Positions 2,400 to 34,971 of a DNA stretch of 64,000 nt are shown one piece after another (the first letter of the stretch is position 1; every line of letters begins with the position of its first letter). The DNA is from Heligmosomoides polygyrus polygyrus (lineage: Eukaryota; Nematoda; Chromadorea; Rhabditida; Heligmosomidae). Where the stretch lies: contig OX377203.1 of NCBI GenBank assembly GCA_947396885.1, forward strand, positions 29,949,253-30,013,252, in the 5' to 3' direction. The position numbers and the translations under genes were made by a program. The notes under the pieces were generated by a model. The model did not search any database, was not told the origin of the DNA, and saw nothing but the letters and a program-made list of their open reading frames with translations.

Positions 2400-4845
2400 A
2401 AACAGAATTTGCTGCCTTACCGACTTTTTTGCTTTTGGCTTTACCGAATCTAAACTACGTAGGAGCCCACATAAGTTTTTATCTAACGGCGCACTCCCGA
2501 GGGAGATTTGAATATAGCCGACTTCTGTTTCTAGATGTTGGAGAGCGCCAATGTTGTGTCCTTGAGTCACAGCCTGACTGGTGCTACGTCGTGGACCAAG
2601 AATTGTACGCACGCTTACGCCAGCAATGGCTTGAATTTTATGTATTTGCACTGATAAGGATTTTTCTCCTATAAAAGAGGATTTTCCTTAGAGAAAGTCT
2701 GTGAACCGTTAAGAACACCCAGAAAAAGGGCGGAAAAGAGCGTGACACTTCATAACGTTTCCCGGACATGTTTAAAATGTCAAATGAGTGCTAGCCATAG
2801 GATGAAGGAAGACTCCAAGGGGTGCCTTGGGGTTTAAACACGTGCACTCCACCCCCTCCCCCATACTTAAACACAACTTAAGATGCGAGCGAAGTTTTCA
2901 CAAAACGCACATTCTTTAAGTGGGGCGACTCTGACACGTATTTTCAAAGCTTCACTTTCACCACAGGTCGGGTTTCTAGGCGTCAAATATTTTTTCATGC
3001 GCTATCCATTATTGGGTGAACCGAAAGTTTCCACCGTTTTCGACTTTTCATCTAAAGCTGCCGCAACTTCGTAAGGTATCGAGCGTTGCAAGTAAGGAAA
3101 AAATTATCACATTCAAACACTGGCCTAAAAAAACGCTAATAACAGTTTTGTGGTTGCGAGCATATGGAAACTTGGAGGGCACGGAATGTCGAGGTGCATT
3201 TGTCACATTCTCTCGCACACGATGCGATTTGTTCTTTTAAGGCTTTCCTAGAAACTCAAGACAACTACATTATTAAAGCTAAATACTTGTAGACTAAGCA
3301 GAATGTAGCGTTTAAAGAATACAATATAGCGTTTAAATCTAAATCCAACAGTATGTGCGAATAAATTCAACCATGCGTAATTTGGGTGGGCAGAAACTCT
3401 TCATTTATCAGAGCAGGACACTTCTCCAACCGGCTTTCAAACGTTGATCTTAATTCCTACTCAGCGTATTCTGCACTAGTCCAAGTTTTAGGTACTAAGC
3501 TGTTTGTGTTTTGACTTTCTAGGACTACACACATCACCAATAAATAATCAGCCACCGCAAATGATCCTCTGAGGGCGTAGTGGATGCTTCGCGATAGTTC
3601 CAGGAAGCTAGTTCTTTCCTATTTTTTCGTAAACCTTGTTTTATTAATGGCACCAGATTGCTCTTCTTGCACAACAACTGTTTCCAAAATGCTCATTCTG
3701 TTTCAACTCGAGAAAGAAACAGAGGTTGCCACTAACACACTCCCACGCATTTGAAAGCGTGACAGGCACAGACTGAAACACACTATACAGACTGAAGTTG
3801 CTTCTTTTCCTTATGTGAGGAGGAGAGTCAGCGGGGTACTTTAAGATACTTTAAACCCAGAGCTAAATTACGGAAAAAGAAATTAGGCCTTGGTTCTCTT
3901 TACTCTTCTGGACGATCGTCTAATCTCATCAGCGCTTAAGGCTCTTAAGACTCTTAAGGATTTCTTTTATTTAAGCACTTCATGTCCAGCTCAAATGACC
4001 TCTCGTTAGTGTTTCACTGAGTTCTTAAACTATTCTTTTCAAAAGTTGTAGTTGATTTCTGAATTGTTGAAGAGTTTCCAGGATTCAAGCTATGAATTTC
4101 ACTGAAAAAAAATCAAAAAAGTCGGACTTTTCGACTGTAAACCACAGATTTTCTCTGCTCAGTGGTACCAGCGACCAGCCATGTAGAATAAAAAAAACGA
4201 AGGTGGGAGCTTTCGAGGCGCTAAAACGGTGGAGACTTGTGGTCCGTCCTAATAGTACTTTTCGAAATATCGTGACACGAATGCGTATCTGGCCTCAACT
4301 ACTGGCCTGCCAGTAAACAGGTCAGTAACTTACTTTAAATACTTTACCATACCTTATTTTACTTTTCTCAGAAAACTCTGACACCAATCTGGGAGAAACA
4401 GAAGGCTTGCTTGGGTCGAGAAGGTCTCGATCTAAGAACTTCGGTTGTGTGAAGAAACGAATTTCCTGCTCTCCAATTCAAGGAGCCAAATTAAGAAAAC
4501 GGGCCCAGGCACCGCTACTTCGTCGCTCTTTGTAGTTGTTCGGAGATCTGCTTTTGCAGAGCCTTAATTTTCCATGCACACCTAGGGTGTGGCGTCATAT
4601 GTGCTTTGTCAAGAGATCCCTGAAGTCGAAAAATGAGCATTATGCGCAGTTAGTCCTCGTACGCAGATTCTTCAGAAATAGGCTCAGATAGTCTTCTGTC
4701 TGTGCTTTTCAAAGATAGTGTCGCGTCGCATCAAAGAAGATTGCTCCAAGAGCGCTAACATATTCTCTTTCCTATTCTTCCCTTCTCGGTGCTAAGGCCT
4801 TACATTTTGTACACCTTGTTTTCCATCTTGTACATCTCCTTGGAG
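2400..4845. other. no gene recognised
   Basis: Moderately A+T-rich DNA with only short overlapping frames. Nothing here resembles a domain I know, and no SINE or LINE copy is obvious. Confidence 0.5.
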
Positions 4846-22502: not shown

Positions 22503-22625
22503 ACTGATGAGCCACAGGGGAGGTGCTACAACATAAAATAAGGTTCGTATGAAGAATAATGTGGCGAAACGAACCTTCTTAGGTATTTTTGTTTTCAATT
22601 TTAATATTTCTAATATTTAATATTA
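22503..22625 (+). repeat. left pseudo-LTR of the PLE (123 bp)
   Basis: Identical base for base to 27919-28041. It starts at the A directly preceding CTGATGA (22504-22510), so it lacks the upstream strand that forms stem I and hairpin A in the right copy. The sequence before it (GATGTAGAACTTA) leaves at most U-A, G-U and A-U pairs for stem I. As placed here the left copy should not form the full ribozyme core alone. Confidence 0.9.
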
Positions 22626-22862
22626 TTTATACGTACTGGATAAGTGTGTTTCTACGAGGGTAACCCGAGAACACATTTTATTCAGCACCGATAACGGGTT
22701 TGAGATAAAATACACTTACTTTTTTAAAATATATATAATGAGGACATTAGCCTCAGTCACCAGTGGTGATTATTCTGGACCAGTGGTCTATGTGCGTCTA
22801 GTTGACGCTTAATTATCAATTTCTTATTTTACTAAGATGTTATAAATCATTTATACTAAAAG

Positions 22863-22868
22863 TTTATT
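22863..22868 (-). terminator. polyadenylation signal of the antisense gene
   Basis: AATAAA on the minus strand, about 35 bases beyond the TAA stop (22903-22905) of the spliced antisense gene. Position and sequence fit a normal cleavage and polyadenylation signal. Confidence 0.65.
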
Positions 22869-22902
22869 CAAATAACACTTCTTTTTACTTGAGATGATCT
22901 TT

Positions 22903-24217
22903 TTACTTGAGAGGATCCTTTTCTTCCAAGTTCTTCTTCTCAACTGTTTTCTAAATAACAATTAATTTGCTATAGATAATTTAACATTATTTTCACTTTA
23001 TGTTAATTACCAAACCTTTCCAATACTATTCTGCACAGTGTTTTCCGACCCGTATAATTCTAACAAATTCATTGTATTCCAACGTAAAGTTCCTTCCTAA
23101 AAAGAACACTAATTGTCATCCTTATAAACGTTTCATAACACTATATCATTTACATTTAATGATGATGACTTACATTGAATGATGTTGTATTTTTACACAT
23201 AAATACCTTACTAACCTCCAAATTTCTTCTTTCAGTGGCTGTCATTAAATCGTGTATTGCACTCCCATTCCAGTCTGAATAATCCATTCCCAACCTTACA
23301 GCTAACTCAGTAGCACGATAACGCTGAATATAACTTTTAATGCTCTCAATAATAATGTAAATTATACAAATTATTTATCTTATATAAATAACTTTAAGCA
23401 CTCACAGAAACAACTTGATTAGAAGTACTGGCATTTCGAATTGTCACAAACCCATTCTTTACATTTATCGCAGGTATTGCCAACTGATTATCCTTGAATA
23501 GTTTTACGATCTTCTTTCTCAAGTATAAGCTATAATAACGAATATAATATTAAATTCCCAAAATAAAGGATAACGATATTTCACCCAAGGTTTTCAATGT
23601 CGGAAATCACTAGTGTTTTCTCCCTTATAACACGAATTCTGGCATTGTTTCTCCTGTTGTATTCAAGTAACTTTCTTTTTCCTTCCGAAATGAAAAATGT
23701 CCAGAAAGCCGCACTCATTTTCACCTTAAGCTATTATAATAAAGCATTATAAAAATTTAATGTATAACTTATAACCAACTCTGAAATTGGATATTTTTCC
23801 ATCATAGCCAGTAGAGCTTGCCCAAGATAATGGATAGGGATCCAAGGGATTTTTGTAACTTAAATGAAGAATAAATATATTGTAATTTCATAATACTTCA
23901 AAATATTACTTACTTCATAACGTCTTCCAAAAACAACTTCACTTGATCACGCAAAGGAATTCTCTCAGCAGTAGGCACATTTATCACACGTATGTATTCC
24001 ATTAACACTCGTTTGTTCACGTTTTCCTGGTTTTTGGTTAGACGAGTTGTTTGATCCACGTTAGGTTTCATAAAACCGGGACGCTAAATGAAGTGGAATA
24101 TAGGATTAATGGCTAATGTATTTTATTATTTGATTTAATAAATGTGTAAAAACCGGTGTGTTGATGACTATTAGTTCACATCTATTAACTTACCTCTCCA
24201 TCTTCAACGTTGTTCAT
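22903..24217 (-). CDS. spliced antisense gene inside the PLE, 259 residues, unknown function
   Basis: I do not recognise the protein. Exons on the minus strand: 24217-24194, 24083-23914, 23858-23780, 23730-23585, 23529-23406, 23323-23216, 23096-23016, 22950-22903. Summed length is 780 nt, 260 codons with the TAA stop. All seven introns (49-119 nt) begin GT and end AG. Reading phase is kept at every junction, including two phase-2 junctions, which is hard to explain by chance. Three donors fit GTAAGT or GTGAGT; the third (GTTGGT) and seventh (GTTTGG) are weaker. The protein begins MNNVEDGE, has a basic helical-looking part (FISEGKRKLLEYNRRNNARI in exon 4, LRKKIVKLFKDNQ in exon 5), RYRATELAVRLGMDYSDW in exon 6, and ends lysine- and glutamate-rich. 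No signal peptide or membrane segment. Antisense orientation would protect its introns from removal during retrotransposition. Confidence 0.85.
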
Positions 24218-24633
24218 CTTTACAGTTGAATAAAATGAACTACACTTCTTGATAGCAGGTCATGATAATCACTTATACCGATATCCGGATTTGATAACAA
24301 CTTAACACATCTTATCCTACAAAATTACAATTTTGATTAATAGCTATCATTCCTTAAGAATATATACATGTTACCCCATAAAACACTTTAACTAAATAAC
24401 AAGATTTAATATACACATATTATTTAGACCCATTGTATAACAATTGTTTGCTCCTTATTCTATGTATAATAAATCATAAGTTCTTCCCCCCCCCCTCTTT
24501 TTTTTTTAAATATATTAATAAAAGGGATAATAGACATCCCGTAACAAACTACTCTTATCTATAAAAAAGAGAACCTATCTCTTACTAAAAATAGGGGTTG
24601 GTACTGATGGGGTTTATAAAAGTCAAAATTGTC
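24218..24633. promoter_or_regulatory. putative divergent promoter / 5' leader region
   Basis: This A+T-rich stretch separates the ATG of the antisense gene (24217, minus) from the start of the structured island before the endonuclease-RT frame (plus). It has no open frame of note and holds a C-run followed by T-run (24487-24510). By position it should contain the antisense promoter; a sense promoter may be here or in the left pseudo-LTR. No specific motif can be assigned. Confidence 0.4.
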
Positions 24634-24720
24634 ATGAGCGGTAAAATTTTGGCGCCTCCAGTACTAGCCGTACCTTTAGGTACACAACGGGTTGACAACC
24701 CCGTAGGGCAGCCCCCTTAA
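24634..24720 (+). CDS. 28-codon upstream ORF in the PLE leader
   Basis: ATG at 24634 opens a short frame that ends at CCC CCT TAA (24712-24720). The endonuclease frame is +1 relative to it. A +1 slip on CCC-CCT before the TAA would continue directly into the endonuclease frame with AAA (24719-24721). The sequence is much more GC-rich than the PLE coding region and overlaps hairpins, so it may equally be structured leader with a chance ORF. Three readings remain: a true N-terminus joined by programmed +1 frameshifting, a regulatory uORF, or an indel in this copy. Confidence 0.35.
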   Translation: MSGKILAPPVLAVPLGTQRVDNPVGQPP

Positions 24721-24764
24721 ACCCTTCTGGGATACTGCTCACTGTATCTGGGTCAGACCGCTCA
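24635..24764 (+). ncRNA. GC-rich structured leader island of the PLE
   Basis: The outer helix TGAGCGGT (24635-24642) pairs perfectly with ACCGCTCA (24757-24764). Inside are hairpins GTACC/GGTAC with a 4-nt loop (24670-24683), ACGGG/CCCGT (24687-24704) and GATAC/GTATC (24731-24748). The island stands out as G+C-rich in an otherwise very A+T-rich element, and the endonuclease frame, which lacks an in-frame upstream AUG, begins within it. It could be an internal ribosome entry structure, a packaging or RT-recognition signal, or both. Structure by eye only. Confidence 0.55.
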
Positions 24765-25495
24765 GGTACTTTGATATAAGGTCTAAAGACGAAATCACTA
24801 ATAACATAGCTAACTATTATGACTGTTTAACATTTATTAAATATAAAAACGAGAGCAAACAATATACAATTAGAAATTTCGGTAATAACAACAAAGGGTC
24901 TATATGTAACGATAAATGCACTTATTGTAAAATAATCAATTATGAACATTTTATTACATCAACTGTTACTAATTTTCGTATTAACACCTATAAAAAAGAA
25001 ACAACTAACTGCAAAACACAAAATGTTGTATATTGTATTAATTGTGTTTCCTGTAAAATGCAATATGTTGTAGTTACGACGAGAAGTTTGAAAGATAGAA
25101 TAAGAGAACACTTATATTTTATTAATAATAAAAAGAAATTCACTCCTCTTTATCAACACTTCCATAATTGTAAATCAAATTTAAAATTCACAATTTTAGA
25201 CTCGCTAGAAGAAAATTCAAACAAATCAATTTTATTTAAAAAAGAACTCTTTTGGATTAAACTACTTAATTGTGCTTTTCCGTTTGGATTAAATGATAAT
25301 ATAAAAAACTATGGTAATATATCTAACATTAACAACCCACTTAATTATAAATCAAATCACCCTTTCTTTTCACTTCGAATAATTAAAGATAGAAATAACA
25401 GAGGAAACAAAAAAGAATTAAAAATAAAAAACAAAATAAAATTAGCAATTTTATACAATACATTGCAGATAATAACAATAATAGTCTACCTATAG
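24707..25495 (+). CDS. GIY-YIG endonuclease frame of the PLE (N-terminal domain)
   Basis: The frame is open from 24707 (after TAG 24704-24706) to TAG 25493-25495. It holds a Cys cluster (ICNDKCTYCKII, 24902-24937) with following H residues, then VVYCINCVSCKMQYVVVTTR with SLKDRIREH after it (25025-25111), the GIY...YIG core and its RxxxH helix in PLE form with Cys residues inside the core. The catalytic glutamate candidate is in KKELFWIKLLN (around 25240-25272). In canonical members the second core motif is YIG or YVG; here it reads YVV, so the conserved glycine is replaced. The only in-frame ATG near the domain (25058) lies inside the core, so translation must start upstream, at a non-AUG codon, by frameshift from the ORF at 24634, or after splicing. 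The product would nick target DNA to prime reverse transcription. It is followed by the RT in the -1 frame. Confidence 0.8.
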   Translation, partial: GSPLKPFWDTAHCIWVRPLRYFDIRSKDEITNNIANYYDCLTFIKYKNESKQYTIRNFGNNNKGSICNDKCTYCKIINYEHFITSTVTNFRINTYKKETTNCKTQNVVYCINCVSCKMQYVVVTTRSLKDRIREHLYFINNKKKFTPLYQHFHNCKSNLKFTILDSLEENSNKSILFKKELFWIKLLNCAFPFGLNDNIKNYGNISNINNPLNYKSNHPFFSLRIIKDRNNRGNKKELKIKNKIKLAILYNTLQIITIIVYL

Positions 25496-27651
25496 CCAAA
25501 ATTTATGAACAAGTTAAAAAATTAAATAAACAAGAACAACATAAACTCATAAATCTTAGTCTAAATCCCTCATTTCTTGATAACATTAGACAAGAAACTA
25601 AATATGTTGTATTATGTTTACTAACACATATTAAATATAAACCGGAAAATAAAGAAAGGATATCAAATACAAAAACATTTAAATTAATAAATATGGAATA
25701 CAAGGGTAATATCTTTGACAGAATAAATTTTAATAAAATATTTAACAACATCCAAGTCAAACAACTTATAAATGATAATTGTAGAAAAGAATTTATACCG
25801 TTTAAAGTTGTATATAACTACAAACGTCCCATATCCAATGTCATCTTTAACTATAATAAATTCCTTAAAAATTTAAATTCAGAAGAATGTATTAATATTA
25901 TAAATAATGACTGTATATGTAATCAAGGTCAAGATAAATATAATTTATACATAGATTCCTTTCATAAACACATTATTACAAGCGATATAAGTGTTATAGA
26001 AAATAAACAGTTAATTAAAATTTTATCAAAAGGTACAAAATACAGACCAAAATTAAGATATGATAGAGTTAATATTTATAATACATACATTGAAACAATT
26101 AATAAAATAATAGAATTTATAAAAAAATATTATAAAATACCACATACAAGATTAGTAATTTTAAATAATTTCTTTAAACAACAATACAGAGACAAAATTA
26201 AACCTTTACTTACTGAAAATAATCTAAACAAAAAAGTTTACACTCCTTATAAAACTATTCGGTTACTACAAACGAAATTTATTTTTTGCCCTTTAGATAA
26301 AGCTAATAACAATTATGGAATCATCTGCAAAAAATTTTATTTACTTAATTTAATGAAAGAGATGGGAGTTACTTATAATATTATAAACAATACATTAATA
26401 AACACTAACACAAGTAATACTTATGTTAATATAAATAACGAAAACATTACATCTATTATAAACAAACATAGAAATTTCCTTCTTCAAAATAAACTAAACA
26501 ATAATAATACTGAAGGTAGTTTACCAATAATTTATTCTTTACCTAAACTACACAAAAATCCTATTAAATTCAGATTTATTACAGGAGCCTATAATAGTAG
26601 TATAAAATCTTTAGCGTTAGAACTCTGCAACTTATTTACACATTTTAAAAATCATTTTATCAATTACTCTAATATTATAAATAACAACTGTAGAACAATT
26701 AAAACATATTGGGCTATTAATAATTGTAATATAACACATGAACTAGATAATATTAAAAATGATAAAATCAAATTATACTCAGCGGATTTTACAGATATGT
26801 TCACAAATATACCACATAATGTCATAATAGAAAATATCAAAAATCTTCTGAATATATGTTTTAAAAATGCAGGAAAGCATTATATAGCTAGTAATGGGTA
26901 TAAAACCTTCTATACAGATAATATTAAAGATAACTATAAATACAGATATTATAATATTACAGATATTCTATATTTAGTTAATTATTTACTAATAAACAGT
27001 TACTGTATATTTATTAATAAGATATACAAACAAAACATAGGCGTTCCACAAGGCGGAAATTTCAGTCCACTATTAGCAGATCTTACAATGTCGATGTTTG
27101 AATATGAATATTCTAAGAATACCATTATAAATGGTAATCAATTATTTAAACCATTTAGATATATGGACGATCTACTTATAATTCATAATTATAATGAAGA
27201 ATTTATTGACAATACTTTAAATCTAATTTATAATAATGTAATTGCTTTAAAAAAGACACATGAAAATGAATATAAATGTAATTATTTAGACATGACTATA
27301 AAAATAATTGACAACAAAATAATTACTAATTTATATAATAAAACAGATTCTTTTAATTTTAAAGTTAATAGATTCCCGCACAGGGATTCGGAAATCTCAA
27401 TTAATATAAAAAGTAATACTATTTATACAGAAACTTTAAGGGTTGCAAAAACATGTTCCCAACTAGAATATTTTAATAATAAAATAAAAGAACTTTATGA
27501 TATATTTATACATAATGGTTTTACCAAAAATTTTATAGTTAAGAACATATTAAAATGTATTTACAAAAACCAACAAATTTTTTATAAATATAACTTAATA
27601 GATAATAATGTGAATAATAAAATGATTAATTTTATTAAAAACATTAAATAA
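25399..27651 (+). CDS. Penelope-like reverse transcriptase with CxC linker (Naiad type)
   Basis: The frame opens at 25399; the first ATG is at 25693, giving 652 residues to TAA at 27649-27651. Numbered from that ATG: a CIC motif at residues 74-76 (25912-25920), the CxC linker characteristic of N-terminal-endonuclease PLEs; IYSLPKLHKNPIKFRFITGA, a typical PLE fingers motif, near 283-302; motif A LYSADFTDMFTNIPH with D365; VPQGGNFSPLLADLTMSMFE (motif B) from 451; RYMDDLLII with the catalytic YMDD at 490-493. All catalytic aspartates are present and there are no internal stops, so the RT may be active. The protein is extremely rich in Asn, Ile and Lys, reflecting A+T-rich codons unlike the host-like flanks. 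RTs of this clade are sister to telomerase RT. The endonuclease is supplied from the upstream overlapping frame. Confidence 0.92.
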   Translation, partial: QRKQKRIKNKKQNKISNFIQYIADNNNNSLPIAKIYEQVKKLNKQEQHKLINLSLNPSFLDNIRQETKYVVLCLLTHIKYKPENKERISNTKTFKLINMEYKGNIFDRINFNKIFNNIQVKQLINDNCRKEFIPFKVVYNYKRPISNVIFNYNKFLKNLNSEECINIINNDCICNQGQDKYNLYIDSFHKHIITSDISVIENKQLIKILSKGTKYRPKLRYDRVNIYNTYIETINKIIEFIKKYYKIPHTRLVILNNFFKQQYRDKIKPLLTENNLNKKVYTPYKTIRLLQTKFIFCPLDKANNNYGIICKKFYLLNLMKEMGVTYNIINNTLINTNTSNTYVNINNENITSIINKHRNFLLQNKLNNNNTEGSLPIIYSLPKLHKNPIKFRFITGAYNSSIKSLALELCNLFTHFKNHFINYSNIINNNCRTIKTYWAINNCNITHELDNIKNDKIKLYSADFTDMFTNIPHNVIIENIKNLLNICFKNAGKHYIASNGYKTFYTDNIKDNYKYRYYNITDILYLVNYLLINSYCIFINKIYKQNIGVPQGGNFSPLLADLTMSMFEYEYSKNTIINGNQLFKPFRYMDDLLIIHNYNEEFIDNTLNLIYNNVIALKKTHENEYKCNYLDMTIKIIDNKIITNLYNKTDSFNFKVNRFPHRDSEISINIKSNTIYTETLRVAKTCSQLEYFNNKIKELYDIFIHNGFTKNFIVKNILKCIYKNQQIFYKYNLIDNNVNNKMINFIKNIK
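25426..25432 (+). promoter_or_regulatory. A_AAA_AAC slippery heptamer, putative -1 frameshift site
   Basis: In the endonuclease frame the codons are ATA-AAA-AAC, giving the canonical X_XXY_YYZ heptamer. A -1 slip continues with CAA (25432-25434) in the RT frame, which is open from 25399. The two frames overlap by about 97 bases and the heptamer lies inside that overlap. No strong stem-loop is visible within 15 bases downstream, which weakens the case. The alternative is a simple indel. Confidence 0.5.
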
Positions 27652-27897
27652 TTATTCCAAAACATACTTTACTACTTTTTAAGTTCTATATCCTCTCAAT
27701 TCCTAATATTAATTATATCATGTTTAAACTACCCCAATACACCAACAATCAACACTGAATGCACATTAACCGTAACAATAATATCAATATGTTAATGATA
27801 TACACAACTGTGTAGTTTCTATTTTGGCATACGCTCACTGTGAGCGGTACTGGAGGAAGGAACAAACATACGTGAGTTTAATCAACACTAATTTAGT
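27652..27897 (+). other. PLE 3' untranslated region with a structured motif
   Basis: After the RT stop the sequence stays A+T-rich except for 27832-27856. That part has a perfect hairpin CGCTCA-CTG-TGAGCG (27832-27846), and TGAGCGGTACTGGAGG (27841-27856) is complementary to two parts of the leader island, CCTCCAGTAC (24655-24664) and ACCGCTCA (24757-24764). A long-range 5'-3' contact in the RNA is possible. Confidence 0.5.
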
Positions 27898-27993
27898 TTG
27901 TAGCATCTCCCCCTCTTCACTGATGAGCCACAGGGGAGGTGCTACAACATAAAATAAGGTTCGTATGAAGAATAATGTGGCGAAACGAACCTT
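27898..27993 (+). ncRNA. strand-permuted hammerhead ribozyme (predicted)
   Basis: All hammerhead parts are present. Strand 2: UCUUCA (27914-27919), CUGAUGA (27920-27926), GCCACA (27927-27932). Strand 1: AAGGUUCGU (27956-27964), A27965 as H17, UGAAGA (27966-27971). Strand 3: UGUGGC (27976-27981), GAA (27982-27984), ACGAACCUU (27985-27993). Stem I is 6 bp, stem II 6 bp starting with G-C, stem III 9 bp starting with A15.1-U16.1, all without mismatch. The order is 2-1-3 and not the usual 1-2-3. An extra 15-bp helix (27898-27912 with 27933-27947, one G-U) closes strand 2 in a 20-nt loop, and stem III closes strands 1 and 3 around another 20-nt loop; the core forms by kissing of these loops. Predicted cut: between 27965 and 27966. 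Activity is inference. Confidence 0.85.
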
Positions 27994-28041
27994 CTTAGGT
28001 ATTTTTGTTTTCAATTTTAATATTTCTAATATTTAATATTA
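27919..28041 (+). repeat. right pseudo-LTR of the PLE (123 bp)
   Basis: Identical to 22503-22625. Together with the 21 bases before it, it contains the complete permuted hammerhead. It ends in an A+T-rich stretch (TTTTAATATTTCTAATATTT), after which non-element sequence begins. Confidence 0.9.
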
Positions 28042-28629
28042 ATTACAACTGCATCAGCTAAAACGTAGGTCATGTCAAGGGTTTTCCGTGTTAAAACTCG
28101 TTCCAGCTTTAATCGCGATTTTCGCGCCTATGGTGGTCACTGAGTTATGTCACCTTCAAGAAGCACATTGTTGAACCTGTTGCTTAACTTTACGCTTTAT
28201 TTCATTCACCCGAGATGTGCATGTCGGTTTTTCGGTACGTGATTATTGTTCTTTGTTCTCTTGGAATTTTATCTCTGCGTCGGCTCTACAGTGAGTAAAA
28301 CAAACATGTTGAAGTCTATACATACAATAGGTATTGGAAAGTAGTGAGCAAGTAAAATCGGATGCCTGCAGCGCAGTCGGATAGGGATAAGGCCCGAGAA
28401 ATCAGGATAGATCTCGTTCATGTCAACATGCCCTCCATCAAAATGAGGTCTGTGAATTGACATTGGACTTGTCTTGTAAGAAGAATGGTCTGTCTAAGAA
28501 GACTGACTATTCTTCTTACAATTGGCTTACAATGTCAATTGGCTGGCATCACGCATCGTTTTGAGGCCAAATGTGTGTTCAAGTTACTTCTGCATCTCAC
28601 AAACGACTGGGTCCACACCTATCGCTGTG
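28042..28629. other. no gene; hairpin at 28454-28541
   Basis: No coding feature. Arms 28454-28491 and 28505-28541 are imperfect inverted complements: AATTGACATTG against CAATGTCAATT, and TTGTAAGAAGAAT against ATTCTTCTTACAA. This makes a roughly 90-bp foldback just right of the PLE. A SINE-head-like GCAGCGCAGTCGGA occurs near 28369. Confidence 0.5.
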
Positions 28630-30905: not shown

Positions 30906-32670
30906 TCATGAAATGTCCTTTAAATGCAGCGTCGAGAGTAGGTTTATTTTCCTCAACCTACTACGAAAAACATTGGCATTTGGCGATTCTAATAAGCTTG
31001 CAGGCAACATTTGTAGCCAGCGAGCGCCACGGTAAAAAAGCGAATTGAACACTTTATCACGACATCTCTTTTTCACCCTAGGATAGTGAAAACGGTAGTA
31101 ATTACGGTGACCCAGCGTTGGCAAGAACGTCCAATATTTGCTAGCTTTAAGTCTTGATTCGCCTTTTAGTACTTTAAAGCAGAAAACTAGGTCGCTGAAA
31201 ACACGCCTATAAAACAGGCTTTTGAGGTTAAAAAGTCTAAGCCTTTCCTCATAGTTGGGAATCATTCGTGTATCGTTTGGAGTACGTACGCATCTATAAA
31301 ATAGAATTTTTGTGAAGGCCTTTTGCACTTTTTCAATTTTGGTTTGAGACTTTTTGGTAAAAGGACTCCAAACATTAGAACAGTACTCTAGAATAGGAAT
31401 GACAAACGATTTATATAGAGTGATCAGTATAGAGTAGTCATCACACTTAATATTTCTGCAAATCAGGAAAAGTGTGGCAAAAGCTTTTTGCACAACTGTA
31501 TCAATGTGTTTTTCAAATGTTAACCCACGATCTAGAAACACTCCAAGATCCCGTACCTCTGATATGGAGGTTAGAACACAGTTGTTGAAACAGTACTCGT
31601 TACTGTCCGAATTTCCAACATGAAAAACTGATGTTTTCGAAAGATTCACAGGTAGCTCCCAAGCGTTGGCCCACACCATCATATTGTTGATGGACTGAGA
31701 TAAAGCTTGATAGACCTGAGCCTTATTGCCATCATTGTAAGCGCCGTAAATCTTTATATCATCTGCATACACTTGCACCTTCACACAAGGATCTGTAATT
31801 AAACAGGAAGGAAGATCGCAAGTATATACAAGGAACAAAATCGGAGATAATACACCTCCCTGAGGCACTCCACTTGTACAATCATAGCAACTAGAAAAGG
31901 AGTTTCCCACCTTAACACGCATATGTCTCCCACTCAAATAAGAGCGAATCCGTGCTAGAAGAGATCCCCTAATGCCCTCTTGATAAAGTTTGGCTAGAAG
32001 TTTCTTATGACACACCTTGTCGAAAGCTTTGGACAAATCGAAGTAAATGATATCAACAGAATCTCCATTATTTATTGCAAGGTTCCAGTCAAAAATGGAG
32101 TCCGACAGTTGAGTGGCCGTGGAAGCACCGGCAGTGAACCCGTGTTGCTGGACAGGAATAGATCTGTTCTTGAATAGAAGTGAGATCAGCTTCTCTCGCA
32201 GTATTTTTTCCATGACCTTTATTGGGGTAGGAGTTATGCTTATCGGTCGAAACGAAGAAAGTAGCACGGATTTAGGACTCTTTGGAATTGCGGTTATAAT
32301 AGACTCTTTCCAAATTTCGGGAACCTCACCATAAATCAGAGAAACGTTGAAAATCATTGATAAAGGTTTATAAAGCGAACGAGCACATTTCTTGAGGACT
32401 ATTTGCGGAATACCGTCGAATGGTACCGATGTAGAGCATCTTAGCCCCTCCATTACCTTTAGTACATCTCTTGCTCGTATGATGATCTCGTTCATATTAT
32501 CTGCGACCAAATAATCAGTCGTGTCTATTTGCTCCATCGAACTAGAAGAATTTGGTTCCTCTTCAGAACTTGAGGTGAAAACAGAAGCAAAATAGTTCGC
32601 GAGTGCTTCTGCAAGTAGTAAGGAATACTCTCCTCGACGTGTTGTAGTAAGGAATACTCTCCTCGACGTC
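30906..32670 (-). CDS. CR1-type LINE reverse transcriptase, 5'-truncated, otherwise open
   Basis: From ATG 32537 the frame has 543 residues without a stop; it extends upstream of that ATG to about 32670 with a NYFASVFTSSSEE segment, so the true protein start is lost. RT motifs in order: LSSFRPISITPTPIKVMEKI (fingers), QHGFTAGASTATQL, IIYFDLSKAFDKV (motif A), SGVPQGGVLSPILFLVYTCD (motif B), VQVYADDIKIYG (motif C), then the thumb and the SFVIPILEYCSNVWSP / EKVQKAFTKILF region of CR1 proteins. The APE endonuclease and ORF1 are missing, as after incomplete target-primed reverse transcription. The intact frame implies a fairly recent insertion. Right junction: a 26-nt duplication and a 37-bp perfect palindrome. 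Confidence 0.88.
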
Positions 32671-32744
32671 CGTTCCCCTAATTACTCAATGTTGAACACT
32701 GACTTTCGTCAGTGTTCAACATTGAGTAATTAGGGGAACGGACG
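32615..32744. repeat. 26-nt direct repeat plus 37-bp perfect palindrome at the CR1 5' junction
   Basis: GTAGTAAGGAATACTCTCC with CTCGACGT (26 nt in all) occurs at 32615-32640 and 32644-32669. It runs directly into inverted arms 32667-32703 and 32708-32744, 37 bp without mismatch around a TTTC loop. Confidence 0.9.
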
Positions 32745-33307: not shown

Positions 33308-34971
33308 CTTTACTAACCAGGGAAGGGTCTCAGGTGGTCTGAACAGGGGAACTGCGAGAATCTCCACACCCTTCATGTAGCAGAAAAACATGTTTCGTTT
33401 CTGCTGAGTCCTTGAACCAAAAGAGCTACGGGCCCTCGAAGGGTGGGGGCGGTACAGTAGCGCACCGTCAGCGCATGCCCATGTGCATGCGGCGCGCGCT
33501 GTTGTATGGGACACGGCGAAAGGCTCTGCGGCAAGCGAATTGGTGGCTAAGGAGGGTGCGGGGCTACTTCGCAGGTGCTAGGTTGGGTGTTCGACTCCCG
33601 TGCTCAGTTTTTGCATTTTTTTCATGATTGCCTCATTTTTTACCAGTTTGCTTCCTAAACATCTCTTACACACTTATTTCACTCTAAATTGCCAAATAAG
33701 GATCAGTTTCGTACTCAACGCGAAGTTTGGGCAAAACTGGTGACCATGACCTTACCATTGGTCACCTTTACCTACTGTAATTTAACATACTCCAGGGTAA
33801 TATGGAAAATGGATGTCAGATTCGTGATCAGCACCCCAAATAACCCCTGGGAGAACTTTGGGCGAAATTGGTGATTATGACTTCAACAGCCCTAGTCACC
33901 CTACCTACTGTAACCTACCGTAATCGGCTGAAAATTGAAAAACGGATGTCATGTTCGTAATCAGCACCCCAAATAACCTCCCTGGGCAAGGTTTAGGCTA
34001 AGTCGGTGATTATGACCTCGACATCTCTAGTCACCCGTTCCTGCTGTAACCCGTACCAGTTGTAAGGTCACTGTTTAACATTCGCTGAAAAAACACAAAA
34101 CTTTGTGAGCTGTCATAACGATGTTTTGTTGCGATCAAAACTTCTAGCGCCAGGCGAGACTCGAACCCGCACCTCCCTCTGACCGGGCGGGAATGCTCTA
34201 CGCCATTACACCACCGACGCCGTTTGATCGAACGCAACACCCACACCTCGTGGGACCGATCAGCACCCACCCGTATCCGGGATGAGCTGGCCGCTGATAC
34301 CAGCATGGAACCAGTTAAGCTGATGGTCTTGATAGAAACGATTCAAATCAGTTTCATGTGTAATGGCGTAGAGCATTCCCGCCCGGTTAGAGGGAGGTGC
34401 GGGTTCGAGTCCCGCCTGGCGCTAGAAGTTTTGATCGCAACAAAACATCGTTATGACAGCTCACAACCTCGATACCAGCCACTTGAGGCTTAATGAAACT
34501 GATTTGAACAAAACATTGCATAAATCAGAAGGTGAGAAAAATGAGTGAAGCACAGCTCACAGAAACCTTTATTTGACAACTTAGAGTGGAATAAATGTGT
34601 AGGAGATGTGTAGGAAGTAAGCTGATTTAGACTGCCATAAGGCACGACTTTCACGACACTACTTTCACGACTCCAGAGGTCGAGGTGAGGTCGAAAAAAG
34701 TTTTCGCTCAAACCTCGCCCAGGAGGGGGTTTGGGAGCGCCGATCACGAATCTGACATCCGTTTTTCAATTTTCGGCCTATTACGGTAGGTTATGGTGGG
34801 TACGGGTGACAGTGCAATACTGTAGCCCCAATTTCGAGGGTTCGTAGCTCTTTGGGTTCAAGGACTCAGCAAAAGCGTAACATGTTTTTCTACTACATGA
34901 AGGGTGGAGATTCTCGCAGCACTATCCATTTCCCCCATTCAGACCTACGCCTGAGGCCCTTTCGTGTAAAG
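33308..34971. mobile_element. long foldback element, family F1, copy A
   Basis: Left end CTTTACTAACCAGGGAAGGG and right end (reverse complement) CTTTACACGAAAGGGCCTCA are related inverted termini. Similarity continues inward for hundreds of bases: CTTCATGTAGCAGAAAAACA, TGCTGAGTCCTTGAACC, AGAGCTACGGGCCCTCGA. The left arm carries a tRNA-like unit (33535-33605, ending GTGTTCGACTCCCGTG). The centre holds repeats of a GATCAGCACCCCAAATAACC block on the left and inverted ones on the right. An inverted tRNA-like pair (34103-34466) sits within it. No coding capacity. Confidence 0.75.
34103..34466. repeat. inverted pair of tRNA-like sequences, family T, copy 1
   Basis: Arms 34103-34208 and 34361-34466 are near-perfect inverted complements of about 106 bp. 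Each contains a tRNA-like part with A-box-like GGTGTAATGGCGTAGAGC and B-box GGGTTCGAGTC(T/C)CGCC, followed by GTTTTGATCGCAACAAAACA and a TGACAGCTCACAA terminus. The anticodon arm would have an oversized loop, so these are not working tRNA genes. The 152-bp spacer shows no feature. A second pair lies at 63681-63903. Confidence 0.75.

Follow-up and report, generated by a model that had tools for sequence, protein, structure and literature searches.

In the window analysed here, a stretch of 64,000 nucleotides from Heligmosomoides polygyrus polygyrus, the 3' untranslated region (UTR) of a Naiad-like Penelope-like element (PLE) very probably carries, once per unit, a non-circularly permuted hammerhead ribozyme of type CSG, whose self-cleavage we infer. 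Sequence comparison shows the fold, a conserved core, covariation, and a place in the 3' region of the element. The novelty lies in the PLE home of the ribozyme and in the comparative evidence, drawn from several families in one genome, and not in the order of its strands.

A base-by-base check of 27898-27993 confirmed every coordinate given by an earlier sequence-only reading, which had proposed a hammerhead with its core strands in a non-standard order. On the forward strand the motif contains the complete set of hammerhead core nucleotides, arranged 5' to 3' as blocks C, S and G. It begins with the 5' half of a 15-bp joining helix (27898-27912), followed by block C, made up of the 5' strand of stem I (TCTTCA, 27914-27919), the catalytic core CUGAUGA (CTGATGA in DNA, 27920-27926), and the 5' strand of stem II (GCCACA, 27927-27932), and then by the 3' half of the joining helix (27933-27947). 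Block S consists of the 3' strand of stem III, which ends in U16.1 and is followed by H17, here A27965 (27956-27965), and the 3' strand of stem I (TGAAGA, 27966-27971); the predicted cut falls after 27965. A 4-nt linker (27972-27975), variable in length and sequence across families, leads from there to block G, which opens at 27976-27984 with the 3' strand of stem II (TGTGGC, 27976-27981) and GAA (27982-27984) and closes with the 5' strand of stem III (ACGAACCTT, 27985-27993), whose first base is A15.1. The stem strands at 27927-27932 and 27966-27971 were recovered by descriptor, in the representatives described below, and in the coordinate check; the 3' half of the joining helix was recovered by folding, in a fitted alignment, and in the same check. 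Stems I (6 bp), II (6 bp), and III (9 bp) contain no mismatches and all abut the core. The joining helix links stems I and II at their outer ends and closes the first of two hairpin loops of 20 nt each. The motif thus combines the C-S-G order, the CUGAnGA/GAAA/UH core, abutting and covarying stems, and the joining helix of type CSG; neither the descriptor nor Rfam at its gathering thresholds placed it in the order S-C-G, or a circular permutation thereof, that defines canonical types I-III.

The window was searched on both strands and in all six block orders with a descriptor requiring exact CTGANGA, GAAA, and UH, and core-abutting stems of at least 3 bp each and at least 12 bp in total. Two sites were found in the 64 kb, both C-S-G: the motif described above and, 5,416 bp upstream, at 22504, a repeat truncated at its 5' end, with 3, 6, and 9 bp in stems I, II, and III. 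The window was shuffled 5,567 times under a first-order Markov model; this yielded 137 matches of CSG order with at least 4 bp in every stem (0.025 per window) and none, in any block order, with stems of 6/6/9 bp. The nested part of the motif folded at -39.3 kcal/mol (z = -4.86). Rfam models applied to the window at gathering thresholds returned tRNA only and no hammerhead call; the expectation that a permuted order would be overlooked by standard models was borne out in that the Rfam models missed the motif in this window. A genome search with the canonical type I model (RF00163) gave no matches among the 73 of 115,222 candidates that were scored, and its control was likewise unmatched, so this negative carries little weight. 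According to the earlier reading, Naiad-type PLEs are reported to lack canonical hammerheads.

The motif belongs to an insertion at 22503-28045 (forward strand) composed of a truncated 5' repeat and one whole unit. The truncated tail copy (22503-22629) retains a ribozyme in which the 5' half of the joining helix and the greater part of stem I's 5' strand are missing. When 360 bp of the 3' UTR were compared with the 656-Mb genome, at least 40 places were found at 91-100% identity (40 scored; 802 candidates), among them a tandem array with units spaced 5,413 bp apart, close to the 5,416 bp seen here. An open frame at 24707-25495 (forward strand) encodes a GIY-YIG-like endonuclease domain, the N-terminal part of the protein; its PF01541 match (E = 0.0059, 17.3 bits) fell below the cut-off of 22.6, and it aligned with the N-terminal part of three homologues (P0004, P0009, and P0011), all of which bear PF01541. 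The open frame at 25399-27651 (forward strand) encodes a PLE reverse transcriptase (RT) with homologues that bear PF00078, and Pfam assigned no family to this frame itself. Since the frames in the window gave a Pfam match below cut-off or none, both assignments follow from the domains carried by 15 homologues, of which nine have PF00078 and three PF01541. The endonuclease and RT parts lie in different frames in the window copy; in sister copies (e.g. L028) both are in a single 981-aa ORF, endonuclease part first, an arrangement that we take to be that of Naiad/Chlamys-type PLEs. From this domain content and from the tandem units with pseudo-LTRs, a feature of PLEs, we take the element to be a Penelope-like element, and we call it Naiad-like from its domain order. 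The ribozyme lies in its 3' UTR, one to each tandem unit.

A second conserved RNA hairpin marks the start of the unit (22636-22685, forward strand), where it immediately follows the tail at junctions between tandem units. Its fold had a z score of -3.26 in the window and -3.90 in L100, and it was present in three families (the window with L027; L076; L096 with L100), including tandem units. Three further observations concern the surroundings. Inside the PLE 3' UTR, 27808-27845 on the minus strand matched the 5' end of U6 snRNA at 15.7 bits, below the cut-off of 44. A 591-aa open frame at 30906-32681 (minus strand) adjoins the PLE downstream and resembles a non-LTR retrotransposon RT by eye. 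A 135-bp tandem repeat at 33806-34220 lies beside a weak minus-strand tRNA match.

Relatives of the element were located in the same genome by protein search with the RT, which yielded 61 matches, including families 57-72% identical, many with long ORFs. Fifty of the 61 (L051-L100) were taken with their flanks; many of these are near-identical copies of the window family and some array members overlap. Under a descriptor requiring at least 4, 3, and 4 bp in stems I, II, and III, and at least 12 bp in total, a mechanical C-S-G match was obtained in 35 of the 50 loci. Three of the 35 (L064, L073, and L098) also gave weaker matches in other orders, two of them by reuse of the same C and G blocks. 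When up to three errors were allowed in a 15-base block C, the motif was found in 13 of the other 15 loci, with an intact core and one stem mismatched or otherwise defective; L063 and L082 had no motif even then. A stem I mismatch was common to several copies in the subfamilies of L070, L071, L072, and L089 and of L083-L086; to judge from the sequences, such mismatches are copied and are not private decay. Motif-bearing loci include some with ORFs open over about 960-980 aa.

Further families were listed by a search with a distant relative, P0006, and six 3' stretches were read. The C-S-G motif was present in four of them, found by descriptor in L104 and by eye in L102, L103, and L106; none was present within the 3' stretch read for L101 or L105. 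The stem II pair next to the core is usually G-C in hammerheads. In L102, L103, and L106 a U.U stands in place of this pair, and for that reason these motifs were found by eye and not by the descriptor. The joining helix, again by eye, measures 14-18 bp in the other families, as against 15 bp in the window. Outside this genome, a collection of viral contigs contained no protein relative and no match to the CSG pattern; a collection of genome contigs contained protein relatives at two loci, L029, considered below, and L030, where the descriptor found no match.

Within the window's own family no covariation was detected among 12 copies, because these copies are too alike. Between families, pairing was examined on an alignment for which only stem III and the joining helix were fitted (22 rows, of which 20 are distinct, after removal of antisense and weak matches). 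Pairing was observed in 97.5% of cells, as against 93.9% in shuffles, which in this and the following test do not preserve the relatedness of the rows. Changes on both sides affected 8 pairs and 28 cells (4.2 and 9.0 in shuffles), and none of 500 shuffles reached the observed pairing, both-sided pairs, or both-sided cells; the number of pair types was not raised (415 of 500 shuffles reached it). When the alignment was slid, at most 3 both-sided pairs and 17 cells were obtained, the latter at a slide of +3. Of the both-sided pairs, six lay among the 15 of the joining helix, where 99.7% of cells were paired, one in stem II, one in stem III, and none in stem I.

The stems were also compared in 12 hand-picked, core-anchored representatives, two from family B and three from the H-J sub-group (L102, L103, and L106); loci that were nearly identical, decayed, or devoid of the motif were not included. 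CUGANGA was present in all 12, as were U at position 16.1 and A, C, or U at H17, a constancy that is due in part to selection, since all were chosen as motif-bearing, by way of the core itself. Stem I (pairs 1-5) was 95% paired, as against 80% in shuffles, and none of 2,000 shuffles reached this value; 11 both-sided cells fell in four of the five pairs, where the fitted alignment of closer copies had none. Stem II (pairs 1-5) was likewise 95% paired, a value reached by 6 of 2,000 shuffles, with three both-sided cells in one pair. Stem III (pairs 1-7) was 98.8% paired (83% in shuffles; 0 of 2,000), with 15 both-sided cells in five of the seven pairs. The counts of both-sided pairs were unremarkable in themselves, being reached in stems I, II, and III by 154, 1,222, and 206 of 2,000 shuffles. 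Most of the covariation in stems I and III came from the H-J sub-group, whose members have identical changes, and the number of independent events is therefore small: H-J and L104 count as one event each, the latter at pair 5 of stem I, and L083 as a partial one, with compensation at pair 4 and a broken pair 3.

Conservation was concentrated in the ribozyme. Between eight families (28 pairs) its identity was 81%; the 100 nt upstream averaged 32% (single pairs up to 66%), equal to the shuffled baseline of 31.6%, and the 70 nt downstream reached 46%, a figure without a shuffled baseline. The sequence-only reading had named a search of related copies with a C-S-G descriptor, and covariation in all four helices, as the observations that would support it; the search succeeded in 35 of 50 loci, and both-sided changes were found in the four helices, with few independent events. 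Conservation and covariation between families lend good support to its structural interpretation, a permuted hammerhead core formed by two pairing 20-nt loops.

Pattern counts over the whole genome gave 755 occurrences of the 12-base block C, as against 27 for its reversed control, and 498 places with the strict S-G module pattern, as against none for the reversed control. On contig C1, an exact block C was located 33-39 nt upstream in 23 of 71 modules and within 100 nt downstream in none; the 71 are the modules listed as far as 93.96 Mb, without two that lie beyond. The 48 C1 modules without an exact 12-base block C upstream may have variant or broken C blocks.

The sequence-only reading knew of no described example of this strand order, but the same order had been published as type-CSG by Eckert et al. 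2023 (PMC10085705). According to the text of that paper available to us, type-CSG is known from two similar sequences, CSG-1 and CSG-2, which both cleave in vitro at the expected site, slowly (0.004 and 0.026 per min), and in which a helix connects stems I and II. Its discoverers considered the type likely valid and weakly supported, and graded the evidence for its biological relevance as weaker because covariation events were few; beyond one cited title, word searches of the main text revealed no retrotransposon context. Our searches of the literature on permuted types, or non-circularly permuted hammerheads, and retrotransposons found this paper alone, and the later papers seen to carry its DOI were structure-comparison tools. 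As far as these searches show, therefore, the kind of ribozyme was already known and its location in a PLE is not in print.

The ribozyme of the window has the block order and core of CSG-1 and CSG-2, as they are described there, and a helix that unites stems I and II. It differs from them in its placement in a PLE 3' UTR, its occurrence in several families with hundreds of module matches, its 15-bp joining helix, and the U.U that replaces the first pair of stem II in one sub-group. With type-SGC (HRIMA-1 and variants; PMC10085705), a circular permutation of CSG, it has in common the S-G module with its short linker (typically three nucleotides in SGC) and the helix bridging stems I and II; in the published SGC examples, however, block C lies 3' of the module, whereas here it lies 5'.

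Hammerhead chemistry and the cleavage of CSG-1 and CSG-2 together predict a cut between A27965 and U27966. The proposed sequence of events is as follows: after transcription, the two 20-nt hairpin loops would pair through stems I and II, rebuilding a normal hammerhead core; the RNA would then cleave itself at A27965/U27966, likely while still being transcribed; and in transcripts of tandem units, cleavage would free unit-length RNAs bearing the 80-nt tail at their 5' end. The ends of the genomic insertions bear on this scheme. In 27 other loci, a few of which overlap in an array, homology stops at the equivalent of window positions 28041-28048, which puts the insertion terminus about 80 nt (76-83) past the predicted cut in the window family; in family B, the distance read from alignments is about 80-84 nt. 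None of nine tallied 5' ends coincided with the predicted cut: the window insertion extends 47 nt upstream of its 5' cut site, and the 5' ends of eight family B copies are scattered. So many copies are truncated at the 5' end that this tally is a weak test. Further truncation points inside the unit (e.g. in L004, L026, and L027) stand outside the nine, and a first attempt on family A, in which 20 stretches were compared with a 1.3-kb tandem-junction reference, produced no match.

Since the tail, which extends about 80 nt beyond the cut, is where insertions terminate, their template must have had the tail downstream of the ORF and have been uncut at that junction, or else re-joined or circular; cleavage therefore probably competes with reverse transcription there instead of feeding it. 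This would be in line with the PLE of Anolis carolinensis, PAc, as far as the available text of PMC11167929 describes it. There the hammerhead cut lies at +26 and reverse transcription starts at +111 to +118, an interval of 85-92 nt; unprocessed RNA is the chief substrate in vitro, hammerhead mutants still insert in vitro, cutting occurs only when protein is added, and no RNA reads start or end at the cut. PAc is also like the window element in its tandem units with pseudo-LTRs and in its similar distance from cut to RT start (80 nt here), and unlike it in that its ribozyme fits the canonical hammerhead structure and its endonuclease is C-terminal. With modest confidence, we favor a role for cleavage in processing or self-limitation over one in making the insertion template.

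The alternative that deserves most attention is that the element's own protein recognizes the conserved, structured tail, as a site of binding or initiation by the endonuclease/RT, and that the hammerhead core is retained for its shape or for protein binding and does not cut in vivo. The Anolis findings just cited (PMC11167929) fit this explanation, as do the nearness of the insertion terminus, only about 80 nt from the predicted cut, and the failure of any tallied 5' end to fall at that cut. Against it stands the retention of the catalytic nucleotides, and not the helices alone, while the stems exchange their sequence, even if the representatives were picked by their core; and two RNAs of the same order cleave in vitro, according to the available text of PMC10085705. 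We consider a purely recognitional tail unlikely.

Much less probability attaches to the idea that the motif is a chance resemblance or a functionless relic. The window copy does show decay, in that its 5' ribozyme is truncated and its protein parts lie in separate frames. Against this stand the absence of stems this long from all 5,567 shuffles, the conservation of the ribozyme beside a diverged upstream flank, the 498 module places with none in the control, and the occurrence of the motif in loci with ORFs of about 960-980 aa, and we regard chance or decay as very improbable. Less credible still is a canonical type III hammerhead (S-C-G) with weak stems. It was considered because the sole hammerhead trace in Rfam was a type III alignment over 27891-27991, at 21.8 bits. 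That score is less than half of the cut-off of 48.5, and the alignment matches well only in stem II and the core, most pairs in stems I and III being non-standard; the C-S-G order, on the other hand, pairs all three stems without a mismatch. The type III assignment was rejected, and we give it next to no weight.

One distant relative allows an exploratory comparison beyond the nematode. Contig JAGXLU010000084.1 (L029), filed under a Great Salt Lake Halanaerobiales metagenome-assembled genome and presumably eukaryotic, encodes an RT at 32% identity. Downstream of this RT, at 3310-3400, lies a hammerhead-like motif in S-G-C order with stems of 6, 3, and 4 bp; stem II is thus short, at 3 bp, and no convincing joining helix is seen. 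When the contig's 657-nt 3' region was shuffled 729,079 times, 3,356 of the shuffles gave a match in some order with at least 13 bp in total. In addition to the canonical block C downstream, a degenerate block C was seen by eye upstream of the same S-G module, which suggests that CSG and SGC could interconvert, the S-G module staying in place while a block C appears or disappears on either flank. We offer a tentative proposal, which we hold to be somewhat less probable than its opposite: permuted hammerheads may be standard in the PLE lineage with the endonuclease before the RT, where they would replace canonical ones, their orders would interconvert, and they would be the source of the orphan CSG and SGC sequences.

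The placement of the ribozyme suggests that a hammerhead rearranged into a pseudoknot can lie about as far from the insertion terminus as the canonical ribozyme of another PLE does. Since the Rfam models missed the motif in the window, more such ribozymes may be hidden. Type-CSG can now be assigned to a host element and a genetic context and is backed by covariation and by hundreds of matches to the module, so that its biological reality and its role become directly testable within one group of retroelements.
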